Origin: a virus
Reading direction: 5' to 3' (one strand)
IMG/VR virus record: IMGVR_UViG_3300031972_001555
Location: 1 to 34,497 of that record
DNA: 34,497 bases
In this document: positions 8,926 through 34,122 of the stretch, in pieces
How the letters are laid out: every line of letters starts with the position of its first letter
Position numbering within the stretch: the stretch's first letter is position 1
Notes under the pieces: generated by a model
Told to the model about the DNA's origin: nothing
The model's input: the letters and a program-made list of their open reading frames with translations, nothing else
The model's database searches: none
Position numbers and translations under genes: made by a program

Positions 8926-8931
8926 TATACA

Positions 8932-8960
8932 GGGGCAGGGAAACTTGCCCCTTGTTTTTT
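8932..8960 (+). terminator. Rho-independent terminator after the scaffold gene
   Basis: GGGGCA at 8932-8937 pairs with TGCCCC at 8946-8951, followed by TTGTTTTTT. It separates the portal/scaffold transcript from a new capsid transcript. Confidence 0.8.
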
Positions 8961-8985
8961 ATGTGGGAATATATTACTATACGTT

Positions 8986-9015
8986 TTGACAGGTGGCCTT
9001 TATGGTCTGTCTATT
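8986..9015 (+). promoter_or_regulatory. Promoter for the major capsid gene
   Basis: A perfect TTGACA at 8986-8991 is followed, 18 bases on, by TCTATT at 9010-9015 (four of six). The predicted start near 9022 gives an 80-base leader to the capsid start at 9104. Placement just after a terminator suits a separately boosted capsid transcript. Confidence 0.55.
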
Positions 9016-9042
9016 AGAGGTGAGAATCCTTAGATAGAGTGT

Positions 9043-9055
9043 CCTGATTATCAGG
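9043..9055. promoter_or_regulatory. Palindrome in the capsid leader
   Basis: CCTGAT-T-ATCAGG is perfectly symmetric around base 9049. In RNA it could form a 5-bp hairpin with a 3-base loop in the capsid mRNA leader. As DNA it could be a protein site. Confidence 0.45.
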
Positions 9056-23937: not shown

Positions 23938-24037
23938 TTATTGCACAATCACAAACCCTTATACAGATTTAACTATAAATGGTTTAAGGCGGTATGATTG
24001 TCTTTGCTCAGAAAGCCCTGTAAATCCTGATTGCTAA
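23843..24037 (+). CDS. o-spanin lipoprotein (Rz1-like), overlapping the i-spanin gene
   Basis: The 64-aa protein starts in the +1 frame within the i-spanin gene and runs 100 bases beyond it. It has a positively charged start (MRRKLLNRCVK), a hydrophobic core (AMMLFLIAPMMAS) and a lipobox-like MAS-C with Cys25 as the lipidation site. The mature form is about 40 aa with three further cysteines. The nested pair with a lipoprotein is the classic Rz/Rz1 architecture. Met at -3 of the lipobox is not ideal. Confidence 0.75.
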   Translation: MRRKLLNRCVKAMMLFLIAPMMASCSTNIVNDYCTITNPYTDLTINGLRRYDCLCSESPVNPDC

Positions 24038-24065
24038 AAACCTGCACCGATTAAAGTGCAGGCTT
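24036..24065. terminator. Bidirectional terminator between convergent operons
   Basis: CCTGCAC at 24041-24047 pairs with GTGCAGG at 24056-24062. On the minus strand the stem is followed by TTTTT, so it ends the leftward operon well. On the plus strand it is followed by CTTTCC, a weaker tail. It lies just after the lysis genes. Confidence 0.75.
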
Positions 24066-24122
24066 TCCAAAACCCCCAAGGCTCTGAGATCGCCACTATG
24101 ACGATGGGGTATAATAACAAAT

Positions 24123-24230
24123 CTATAGAAAAACTTCTATCAAATGATTGAGTATTATCATGAGTACGATAGGTATCATTAGGATGATGCATATACCGCC
24201 TATTGTCATGCTGTCTTTTTTATCGCTCAT
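24123..24230 (-). CDS. Micro-protein with one membrane segment, 35 aa
   Basis: ATG 24230 to TAG 24123 reads MSDKKDSMTIGGICIILMIP and then IVLMIILNHLIEVFL, one hydrophobic span after a short charged head. GGGG lies six to nine bases before the ATG (minus-strand GCGGGGATATT). The ATG overlaps the stop of the preceding 31-aa frame (ATGA). Overlap plus a ribosome site support it being real. Function is unknown. The last codons form a 6-bp hairpin (24125-24140). Confidence 0.6.
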   Translation of the reverse strand: MSDKKDSMTIGGICIILMIPIVLMIILNHLIEVFL

Positions 24231-24322
24231 AATATCCCCGCTACAACATAAGTAAGTGCAGCCATGGAAAGTAAAGCCATGCTTGCAAAAACTGAAACCA
24301 TTATTTTTTCTTGATTAGTCAT
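24227..24322 (-). CDS. Micro-protein with one membrane segment, 31 aa
   Basis: ATG 24322 to TGA 24227 reads MTNQEKIMVSVFASMALLSM and then AALTYVVAGIL, almost entirely a membrane helix. GAAAGG lies about 10 bases upstream on the minus strand. It overlaps the end of the upstream 65-aa gene by 8 bases and the next 35-aa frame by 4. The two micro-proteins in tandem suggest a two-part membrane device at the end of the early operon. Function is unknown. Confidence 0.55.
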   Translation of the reverse strand: MTNQEKIMVSVFASMALLSMAALTYVVAGIL

Positions 24323-29121: not shown

Positions 29122-29444
29122 TATGCACCTGCCTGCTCATCAATTTTAGCTGATCTGTATTGCTCGTATGCATCATCTTCTGGACAGTGGTCATACGTAT
29201 CTTCTTTAATCTCTTCAATGCGAGCATTGCACTGATTAATCAAATCGGAAAGCTCAGAAAATACGCAATCCATATCACGGCGCAAAGCATATCCACTATC
29301 GCTAACTTGTAACTGGCGATTAAGTGATGGTATAATGTCAATCAATGCCTGAGCATCTTCAATCCACGCTTCAAGATCGCAAATGCTTTTATGCGCTGGT
29401 ACATCAGTTTTAATTTCATCAATAAATATTTGTATGTGTTTCAT
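29121..29444 (-). CDS. First gene of the leftward early operon, 107 aa
   Basis: Start at ATG 29444, directly after a perfect AAGGAGATAAAC. The product is acidic and helical (HIQIFIDEIKTDVPAHKSIC, ALIDIIPSLNRQLQVSDSGY, CNARIEEIKEDTYDHCPEDD). No known domain is seen. As the promoter-proximal early gene it should be among the first and most strongly made products. An acidic helical protein there could be a host-takeover or DNA-mimic type factor; that is inference. Confidence 0.65.
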   Translation of the reverse strand: MKHIQIFIDEIKTDVPAHKSICDLEAWIEDAQALIDIIPSLNRQLQVSDSGYALRRDMDCVFSELSDLINQCNARIEEIKEDTYDHCPEDDAYEQYRSAKIDEQAGA

Positions 29445-29464
29445 GTTTATCTCCTTACAATCCC

Positions 29465-29493
29465 TATTGTGCATATATAATTATTCAAGTCAA
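29465..29493 (-). promoter_or_regulatory. Leftward early promoter
   Basis: On the minus strand TTGACT (29493-29488) is followed, 16 bases on, by CACAAT (29471-29466). The message would have a leader of about 15 bases ending in AAGGAG. The -10 box is only four of six. TTATT-CAAGTC-AATAA (29481-29496) overlaps the -35 box and may be an operator. Confidence 0.45.
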
Positions 29494-29506
29494 TAACTTT
29501 TTTGCA

Positions 29507-29536
29507 TTGAATTTTATGTTTTTTTATGAATAGTAT
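29507..29536 (+). promoter_or_regulatory. Rightward promoter for the HTH regulator
   Basis: TTGAAT (29507-29512) and TAGTAT (29531-29536) are 18 bases apart, and the region is very AT-rich. It faces away from the leftward early promoter, with only 14 bases between their -35 boxes. Confidence 0.4.
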
Positions 29537-29568
29537 TATTTAAGTAAATTAATGAGAGGACTTAAATA
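29537..29568. promoter_or_regulatory. Inverted repeat between promoter and regulator start
   Basis: TATTTAAGT (29537-29545) and ACTTAAATA (29560-29568) are perfect 9-base inverted copies. They enclose the ribosome site GAGAGGA and reach the A of ATG 29568. It could be an autoregulatory operator or an RNA hairpin with the ribosome site in its loop. Confidence 0.6.
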
Positions 29569-29759
29569 TGAAAACAGCAAGCGGTAAGATAGCAACATGG
29601 AAAGAAAGAATGACAAAAGCAGGTCATACTCAAAAATCATTTTGTGAATTAGTGAGTGTAACACCTGATTTAATGTCTAGGTATATAAATAATAAGACAA
29701 AGCCTAGCATTAATACATATGACAAAATCGAGGAAAAGCTAAGGGAACTGGGGGTTTAA
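29568..29759 (+). CDS. Cro/CI-type HTH regulator
   Basis: The 63-aa protein is a single HTH: ATWKERMTKAGHTQKSFCEL, then SVTPDLMSRYINNKTKPSIN and YDKIEEKLREL. The QKSFCELVSVTPDLMSRYI part fits the two central helices of Xre/Cro domains. It lacks a C-terminal dimerisation or self-cleavage domain, so it is more Cro-like than CI-like. It opens the rightward operon and faces the leftward early promoter across a shared control region. Confidence 0.8.
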   Translation: MKTASGKIATWKERMTKAGHTQKSFCELVSVTPDLMSRYINNKTKPSINTYDKIEEKLRELGV

Positions 29760-29760
29760 T

Positions 29761-30195
29761 ATGTGTAGTAAGACAAAAGCTTTACAAGAGATATTAAGTA
29801 TAACAAAATCCGGCTTTCCTACGCCTGAGATTATGGAGATAGAAAAGATTGCTCACCGGGTCTTGAATAAAAAGGTTGTATTTAGAGAAACTGATTTTGA
29901 AAAGTTTTGGAAAGCATACCCTAAAAGGGAAGGGGCAAACCCAAAGGAAAGGGCTAGGCGTGCATTTGAAAAAGCTATTCAAGATGATGACATGGAAATA
30001 ATTATAAGGGCTGCCAATAATTATGATGGTGAAGAGGATAAAAGATTTACTCCTCAAGCTGCAACATGGCTTAATGAAAAGCGTTATTTAGATGTAGCTG
30101 AAAAACCTAAATTTGATCCTGATAGAAAATCATTGATGGATTTTGGTGGTGATTACGCAAAATATAAAGCGTATCTTGATGGATTGAGTACTTAA
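29761..30195 (+). CDS. Replication-type protein, C-terminal-domain-only
   Basis: The 144-aa protein has FEKFWKAYPKREGANPKERA, RRAFEKAIQDDDMEIIIRAA and RFTPQAATWLNEKRYLDVAE. FWxAYPxR ... A-x-x-A-F-x-K-A ... FTP-x-x-x-TWL-N-x-x-x-W/Y is the well-known C-terminal segment of phage replication initiator/helicase-loader proteins. The usual N-terminal winged-helix domain is missing; the N-terminal 45 residues are short and helical. It starts one base after the regulator stop, with GGGGG upstream, and sits just before the non-coding region. Confidence 0.7.
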   Translation: MCSKTKALQEILSITKSGFPTPEIMEIEKIAHRVLNKKVVFRETDFEKFWKAYPKREGANPKERARRAFEKAIQDDDMEIIIRAANNYDGEEDKRFTPQAATWLNEKRYLDVAEKPKFDPDRKSLMDFGGDYAKYKAYLDGLST

Positions 30196-30203
30196 AAAAA
30201 GAA

Positions 30204-30232
30204 GAAGGAGTTGACAAACTGCCCCCTCCTTC
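30204..30232. repeat. Inverted repeat over a -35 box
   Basis: GAAGGAG (30204-30210) and CTCCTTC (30226-30232) are perfect inverted copies flanking TTGACA. There is no T tract after it, so it is as likely an operator as a terminator for the upstream gene. Confidence 0.45.
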
Positions 30233-30240
30233 GATATTCT
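30211..30240 (+). promoter_or_regulatory. Promoter into the non-coding region
   Basis: A perfect TTGACA (30211-30216) and TATTCT (30235-30240) are 18 bases apart. Transcription would begin near 30247 and run through about 450 bases that hold no gene. Confidence 0.55.
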
Positions 30241-30246
30241 AATTTT

Positions 30247-30656
30247 GCACAACAAGAATATGGTTTAAGAATACACATTCCCCCACATTTTTGTCAAGCT
30301 AAGTTTATTGGTTTTTCTAACAAAAAAGCCCCCGCTGTCTAATGCGGTATATAAATGGGCAATAACTTCGGGCGAACTTTACACCAAAATTTATTTTAGG
30401 TGGTTTCCGAGCCGATTAAATGCTTGATATAGGCTATAATCGAAACCTATCGTTATCCGTACGATGACTTAGCTACTCTTAGGCAATATAAATTAAGAGA
30501 TCGGGCAAGCGGCACTTGTAAAAATGTAGATAGGCTATACGAAGTTTGTAAAATATATCCCCCTTGGTCTCTGTTGTGATAGCCTTTGGTTATCGGGGGT
30601 AACGGAAAGCGGAACTATGTCTATAGTAATAAAATGGAATTAAATAAATTATTTTG
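30247..30656 (+). ncRNA. Candidate structured non-coding RNA or replication origin
   Basis: There is no ORF over about 10 codons in 30247-30656. Helices seen by eye: GCCC/GGGC (30328-30331, 30357-30360) enclosing CCGC/GCGG; CACCAAAAT pairing with ATTTT-A-GGTG (30382-30402); ATCGT/ACGAT (30449-30465); CTCTTA/TAAGAG (30476-30499); CCCCC/GGGGG (30559-30599) enclosing GATAGCC-TTT-GGTTATC. AGGCTATA occurs twice (30431, 30532) in GATA..GGCTATA..CGAA contexts. A promoter precedes it and another follows. It matches no RNA class I know; position in the replication module also allows an origin. Confidence 0.45.
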
Positions 30657-30684
30657 TTGACTAACTTTCCCTATGATGTATTGT
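30657..30684 (+). promoter_or_regulatory. Promoter of the recombination operon
   Basis: TTGACT (30657-30662) and TATTGT (30679-30684) are 16 bases apart. The start near 30691 gives a leader carrying AAGGAG before ATG 30705. Confidence 0.5.
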
Positions 30685-30704
30685 GAAGGTGTAAGGAGAT
30701 AAAC

Positions 30705-30884
30705 ATGACTGATAATAAATTTTTCTACATCTGTATGCTTAAGCAACGTAAAATGGATTATACCATTATGCTGCGCAAGGCTATGAAAACTGACATGGGT
30801 AGATGTCATCTAAAAATGTTCACCACTGAAATTTTAAAGATTGAAAAGCAACTGGCTTATTTTAATAAGAAGGAGGTTGCGTAA
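30705..30884 (+). CDS. Small basic protein, 59 aa
   Basis: ATG 30705 after a perfect AAGGAGATAAAC. Reads MTDNKFFYICMLKQRKMDYT, then IMLRKAMKTDMGRCHLKMFT and TEILKIEKQLAYFNKKEVA. It is helical, basic and rich in Met and Lys. AAGGAGG within its last codons serves the next gene, whose ATG overlaps its stop (TAATG). As the leader gene of the recombination operon it may be a regulator or partner, but no family is recognised. Confidence 0.65.
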   Translation: MTDNKFFYICMLKQRKMDYTIMLRKAMKTDMGRCHLKMFTTEILKIEKQLAYFNKKEVA

Positions 30885-33792: not shown

Positions 33793-33873
33793 AACTGTAG
33801 CCCACAACAGTTCCCCGCGCTCATGTTTATCAAAGTCCTTACACACTTCCTACATAGCGCGGGGTTTTCTTTT
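33793..33873 (+). terminator. Double hairpin, terminator-like
   Basis: AACTGT/ACAGTT (33793-33798, 33807-33812) forms a first hairpin. CCCCGCGCT (33813-33821) and AGCGCGGGG (33856-33864) form a perfect 9-bp second stem with a 34-base loop, followed by TTTTCTTTT. The large loop is unusual for a simple terminator. Confidence 0.65.
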
Positions 33874-33902
33874 CATACACTCGTATTTATCAAATAAAGT
33901 TA

Positions 33903-33933: not shown

Positions 33934-33951
33934 TCATGTAAGGAGATAAAC

Positions 33952-34122
33952 ATGGATGTAATAATCAATGACATTGATATAGATGAATTTTTAAAGCTTA
34001 AAGCACCTTGCTTAAAGGTCGATTATTTAGGCTCAACTGTAATTTGCCCTTTATATTTTGATGTGCCTATACGCATTTCATGCGGGTATGATAATGGAAA
34101 TTTTTGGACAGGATTAGAATAA
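33952..34122 (+). CDS. Small hypothetical protein, 56 aa
   Basis: ATG 33952 after a perfect AAGGAGATAAAC. Reads MDVIINDIDIDEFLKLKAPC, then LKVDYLGSTVICPLYFDVPI and RISCGYDNGNFWTGLE. It has three Cys and an acidic N-terminus. It is coupled to the next gene by TAATG. No family is recognised. Confidence 0.6.
   Translation: MDVIINDIDIDEFLKLKAPCLKVDYLGSTVICPLYFDVPIRISCGYDNGNFWTGLE

Follow-up and report, generated by a model that had tools for sequence, protein, structure and literature searches.

A putative OOP-like antisense RNA gene and a predicted convergent promoter pair beside the O-like replication gene of a podovirus

Analysis of both strands indicated that the left end of a long non-coding gap next to a phage replication gene looks like a compact small RNA gene on the minus strand, with an OOP-like layout. 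We favour, with modest confidence, the reading that this predicted antisense RNA and a pair of convergent promoters form a module controlling the replication operon. The features concerned are listed below; the window is the whole 34,497-nt stretch of viral DNA that was analysed.

29568-29759, plus strand: Cro-like HTH protein, upstream in the operon of the O-like gene (PF01381, E 8e-6).
29761-30195, plus strand: O-like replication protein (FWxAYP), 144 aa, C-terminal domain only (phrog_270).
30194-30232, minus strand: predicted intrinsic terminator with a GAAGGAG/CTCCTTC stem and inner GGCA/TGTC, followed by TTCTTTTTTT (-15.0 kcal/mol).
30195-30261, minus strand: predicted OOP-like small RNA of 67 nt, folding into a pair of hairpins with a U-tail and antisense to the O-like gene's 3′ UTR (fold, promoter-terminator scan).
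30196-30704, no strand: non-coding gap separating the O-like gene from the downstream operon (ORF map, periodicity, family and DNA searches).
30211-30240, plus strand: promoter-like TTGACA-18-TATTCT, start at about 30247 (motif search).
30234-30261, minus strand: hairpin 1 of the small RNA, ATATTCT...AGAATAT (fold).
30268-30297, minus strand: predicted sigma-70 promoter TTGACA-18-TATTCT of the small RNA, start at about 30261 (motif search).
30328-30360, minus strand: weaker hairpin resembling a terminator, with TTTTTT after it; a second minus-strand RNA may end here (-10.3 kcal/mol).
30657-30684, plus strand: promoter-like TTGACT-16-TATTGT before the downstream operon (9/12 matches).
30705-30884, plus strand: small ORF of 59 aa that opens the downstream operon, with AAGGAGATAAACATG in front (ORF map).

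In a simple ORF map the gap, at 509 nt, is the longest ORF-free stretch of the window. The runner-up (377 nt, 23938-24314) lies between convergent gene blocks, and its hairpin CCTGCAC/GTGCAGG at about 24043-24065 looks like a two-way terminator. No ORF of more than 43 aa is located wholly within 30196-30704, codon periodicity there is 0.66-0.77 as against at least 1.85 in coding stretches, and none of the six reading frames matched a PHROGs or Pfam family; a degraded gene was rejected on this ground. The first-pass annotation was therefore right in reporting a real non-coding stretch beside the replication gene. No tRNA or tmRNA was found in the gap, and a similarity search of its DNA against phage and plasmid collections gave nothing convincing. 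Comparison with RNA family models, which that annotation had proposed as a check, was carried out with the Rfam covariance models; no score exceeded the gathering score and only chance-level matches were seen at E up to 10, so that known Rfam families (ribozymes, introns, large phage RNAs) were rejected.

The FWxAYP protein matched the replication initiation protein family phrog_270 with an E value of 9.9e-17, but over positions 174-254 of 383 only. In the region 29568-30195 the HTH protein lies directly 5′ of this O-like protein without N-terminal part, and the two are possibly a split replication initiator. No plus-strand terminator belonging to this upstream operon was found. The downstream operon encodes, in order, the 59-aa ORF, a protein of phrog_11717 (unknown family), a Gp157/Gam-like protein, SSB and an HNH/DUF968 protein. 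The 15-base leader AAGGAGATAAACATG occurs in identical form before three early genes, at 29442-29456 (minus), 30693-30707 (plus) and 33940-33954 (plus); 0.13 copies were expected and none of 100 shuffles reached three. It is read as a translation-initiation leader common to these genes, which possibly was duplicated together with its promoter. The words common to the gap and the divergent promoter region 29475-29567 were only this ribosome-binding leader and one 9-mer, and shared operator words were thus rejected.

The sole clear structure signal came from windows over 30150-30299 on the reverse complement (z between about -4.1 and -4.3), a signal missed in the first-pass annotation. Read along the minus strand, TTGACA (30297) is followed by an 18-nt spacer, TATTCT (30268) and then the 67-nt stretch ATATTCTTGTTGTGCAAAATTAGAATATCGAAGGAGGGGGCAGTTTGTCAACTCCTTCTTCTTTTTT. 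The promoter has a perfect TTGACA and agrees at 10/12 positions with the consensus, which is that of sigma-70 and may not be the host's; the 18-nt spacer and the -10 element TATTCT are suboptimal. The 67-nt RNA folds at -21.4 kcal/mol (z -4.15; 4/5000 shuffles as good), with stem pair probabilities of about 0.86-0.94. Since some 18 windows on each of the two strands were inspected before this stretch was chosen, the fold statistic alone is weaker than its face value; the promoter and the T-run are evidence separate from it. The terminator is the strongest intrinsic terminator on the minus strand of the window, and was missed by the standard terminator scan because of the scan's loop limit. Its T-run and the O-like stop codon overlap, and this codon is the only coding sequence that the RNA covers. 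The weaker hairpin at 30328-30360 is similar to false positives found inside genes. Thus, while the first-pass annotation proposed a phage regulatory RNA here and one is probably encoded, it would lie on the opposite strand, measure about 67 nt and not 350-400 nt, and occupy the left edge only (30195-30297).

The promoter-terminator pair of the minus-strand RNA is the only such pair in the window at the thresholds used, and none arose in 300 shuffles of the region. As a positive control, lambda 37800-40400 was scanned with the same program at slightly looser thresholds than for the window; a single pair was returned, pO to tO (OOP), with 9/12 promoter matches and -16.0 kcal/mol. A background survey of 28 other loci together with the window (about 730 kb of strand) yielded few such pairs, indicating a low background.

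Terminator-like elements were also noted in two other places in the window. The 130-base gap before the major head gene (8926-9055) contains a strong terminator at 8931-8952 (-16.6 kcal/mol) followed by TTGACAGG, making a separate capsid transcription unit probable. At 33806-33875, 3′ of the last gene of the replication module, the inverted repeat CCCCGCGC...GCGCGGGG is followed by TTTTCTTTT, and has the look of a long-looped terminator.

The gap had at first been described as a structured plus-strand RNA of 350-400 nt, perhaps a ribozyme or sponge. An ORF is indeed absent and several helices can be drawn, but the 426-nt plus-strand fold (-94.3, shuffle mean -93.5, z -0.13) is no better than that of shuffled sequence, and sliding plus-strand windows gave z values of -1.4 to +1.3. 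The helices, the 4+4 pseudoknot and the GGCTATA/ATAGGCTATA repeat (copies at 30429 and 30530) exist where they were placed, yet all are within chance: a comparable H-type pseudoknot was present in 900/1000 shuffles and in 62/84 windows of the same length from the same phage, and a 10-nt direct repeat, as formed by the two ATAGGCTATA copies, in 165/1000 shuffles. The terminal CCCCC/GGGGG stem, also named in that description, forms a hairpin with a z of -1.5 that was equalled or bettered in 68/1000 shuffles. Together with the lack of an Rfam match and of a plus-strand terminator, these data make such an RNA very improbable, and nothing was found in favour of a ribozyme or sponge on this strand.

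The TTGACA promoter assigned to the plus strand was confirmed as a motif, lying at 30211, and TATTCT follows it after 18 nt. The window has just two such strict sites, this one and the minus-strand promoter, and they face each other; one strict site per strand was obtained in 0/20,000 shuffles. Both sites are therefore probably real and would converge, with transcription starting near 30247 and 30261; the plus promoter may be one half of this pair. A caution is that the -35 of the plus promoter falls in the minus-strand terminator's loop; some bases thus serve both functions. No plus-strand terminator was found between the plus promoter and 30705, and a plus transcript is therefore more likely to be a leader of the downstream operon. 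The whole gap could accordingly be read as a long plus-strand leader of that operon (about 460 nt from 30247) carrying regulatory structure, for which the strict promoter at 30211 and the uninterrupted path to 30705 both speak; however, structure is not in excess of chance and the second promoter at 30657 makes such a leader unnecessary, and we regard this explanation as unlikely.

The only signals in the approximately 350 nt at 30300-30656 are part of a set of four CCCCC runs and the weak minus-strand hairpin 30328-30360; this remainder probably consists of untranslated leader and spacer sequence, with the promoter at 30657 at its end. The CCCCC runs are at 30222, 30280, 30329 and 30559 (plus strand), within 340 bases of an AT-rich gap, and at least four such runs occurred in 185/20,000 shuffles. 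Two of the four sit in terminator-like hairpins on the minus strand.

In layout the predicted minus-strand RNA resembles lambda OOP and P22 oop in several respects: a short transcript (63-77 nt for the known RNAs, P22 oop being 63 nt (PMC13397905), and 67 nt predicted here) opposes the early rightward operon; its own sigma-70 promoter, here a predicted one, lies on the strand opposite to that operon; it ends at a strong intrinsic terminator, again predicted here; and it lies next to an O-type replication gene and converges on the main early transcript. In the lambdoid right operon, likewise, OOP opposes the early transcript next to O. There are also differences. OOP covers the 3′ end of a cII/c1-type activator gene in antisense orientation and promotes cII mRNA decay via RNase III (PMC5869508, PMC12197685), whereas the present RNA would cover the O-like stop codon and 3′ UTR, and no cII-like gene was recognised here. 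The OOP promoter is found where gene O starts, between cII and O, whereas the present one (30268-30297) is downstream of the O-like gene. OOP has a LexA-type site at its promoter, whereas a search for two types of LexA box found none in 30190-30300. No sequence similarity to OOP was shown. Because the present RNA departs from OOP in two features of position (antisense to cII, start at O) and in the LexA box, membership of OOP proper is not claimed. The P22 sar and 23as RNAs and other phage cis-antisense RNAs are likewise RNA units opposite phage genes, but their targets and positions differ from those of the present RNA.

From the computed promoter motif, terminator, fold and rarity we infer transcription, pairing with the 3′ UTR followed by RNase III cleavage, and transcription interference. 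RNA polymerase would start at about 30261, as judged from the promoter, and terminate near 30195 within the T-run. This would yield an RNA of 67 nt complementary to the 3′ UTR of the operon whose last gene is the O-like replication gene; the RNA may pair with read-through mRNA and so expose that mRNA to RNase III. Firing of the minus promoter would also work against rightward transcription, including any that begins at the opposing plus promoter (30211). Less transcription may thereby enter the Gp157/SSB operon or cross an origin in the vicinity, as when pO acts against pR in lambda, where the convergent pO reduces transcription from pR and affects the origin, supporting its correct function (PMC3985674). 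The dual-promoter control of lambda replication by pR and pO (PMC3985674) shares with the present locus the convergent promoters beside a replication gene, but pR is distant, whereas here the facing plus promoter is about 60 bp away and the origin position was not located.

If the minus RNA is real, it might alternatively act in trans on phage or host mRNAs and not on the adjacent operon. Its 3′ arm CUCCUUC is complementary to the AAGGAG leader before three phage genes; but the arm is locked in the terminator stem, and the best pairing with phage start regions (-30.6) is matched by the shuffled-RNA mean of -30.7, with 94/200 shuffled RNAs pairing as well. Trans targets within the phage were rejected on this basis, as pairing was not above chance, and we hold a trans-acting role to be quite improbable.

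A replication origin in the gap, the other function first suggested for it, is possible but was unsupported by the searches: no iteron array or tandem repeat was found, and DnaA-like boxes were not in excess over chance. On this explanation the HTH and FWxAYP proteins would act at the origin, with transcriptional activation provided by the convergent promoters. It is consistent with the position of the gap next to the O-like gene, with the FWxAYP protein lacking its N-terminal part (the lambda origin is inside gene O), with an AT-rich stretch at 30616-30700, with one TTTTGCACA box at 30243 (relaxed DnaA-like), and with a turn of the cumulative GC skew near 29.5 kb. Several directly repeated initiator sites were nevertheless not seen, the two ATAGGCTATA copies being within chance, and the skew turn tracks gene orientation; we consider an origin here doubtful. 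A further speculation, to which we attach little credence, is that the convergent pair and the 67-nt RNA are a self-contained copy-control/origin module, with an initiator split into the HTH protein and the C-terminal O-like protein and with the 350 nt as a transcription-activated non-iteron origin.

Searches with the FWxAYP protein, the 30884 protein, SSB, and the portal, terminase and capsid found no close relatives carrying the gap. Structural relatives exist (capsid up to 69% identical), carrying other replication modules, and none was found with the gap. Relatives of the FWxAYP protein are full-length initiators or have unrelated neighbours. One relative, L046, has a related Gp157-SSB-DUF968 block, but its gap is 173 nt long, between divergent genes and beside a primase/helicase-like gene. 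Exact-pattern scans returned a single match, a 19-mer, which falls within an unrelated, GC-rich and apparently coding region of a contig and was judged to be chance.

The structural proteins of this podovirus have no more than a distant relationship to those of named phages. If the minus-strand RNA is transcribed, OOP-like control by an opposing RNA would extend to such a podovirus, at the far side of its replication gene; the case also shows that a promoter-terminator scan of both strands picks up phage small RNAs to which energy-based folding of the sense strand is blind.
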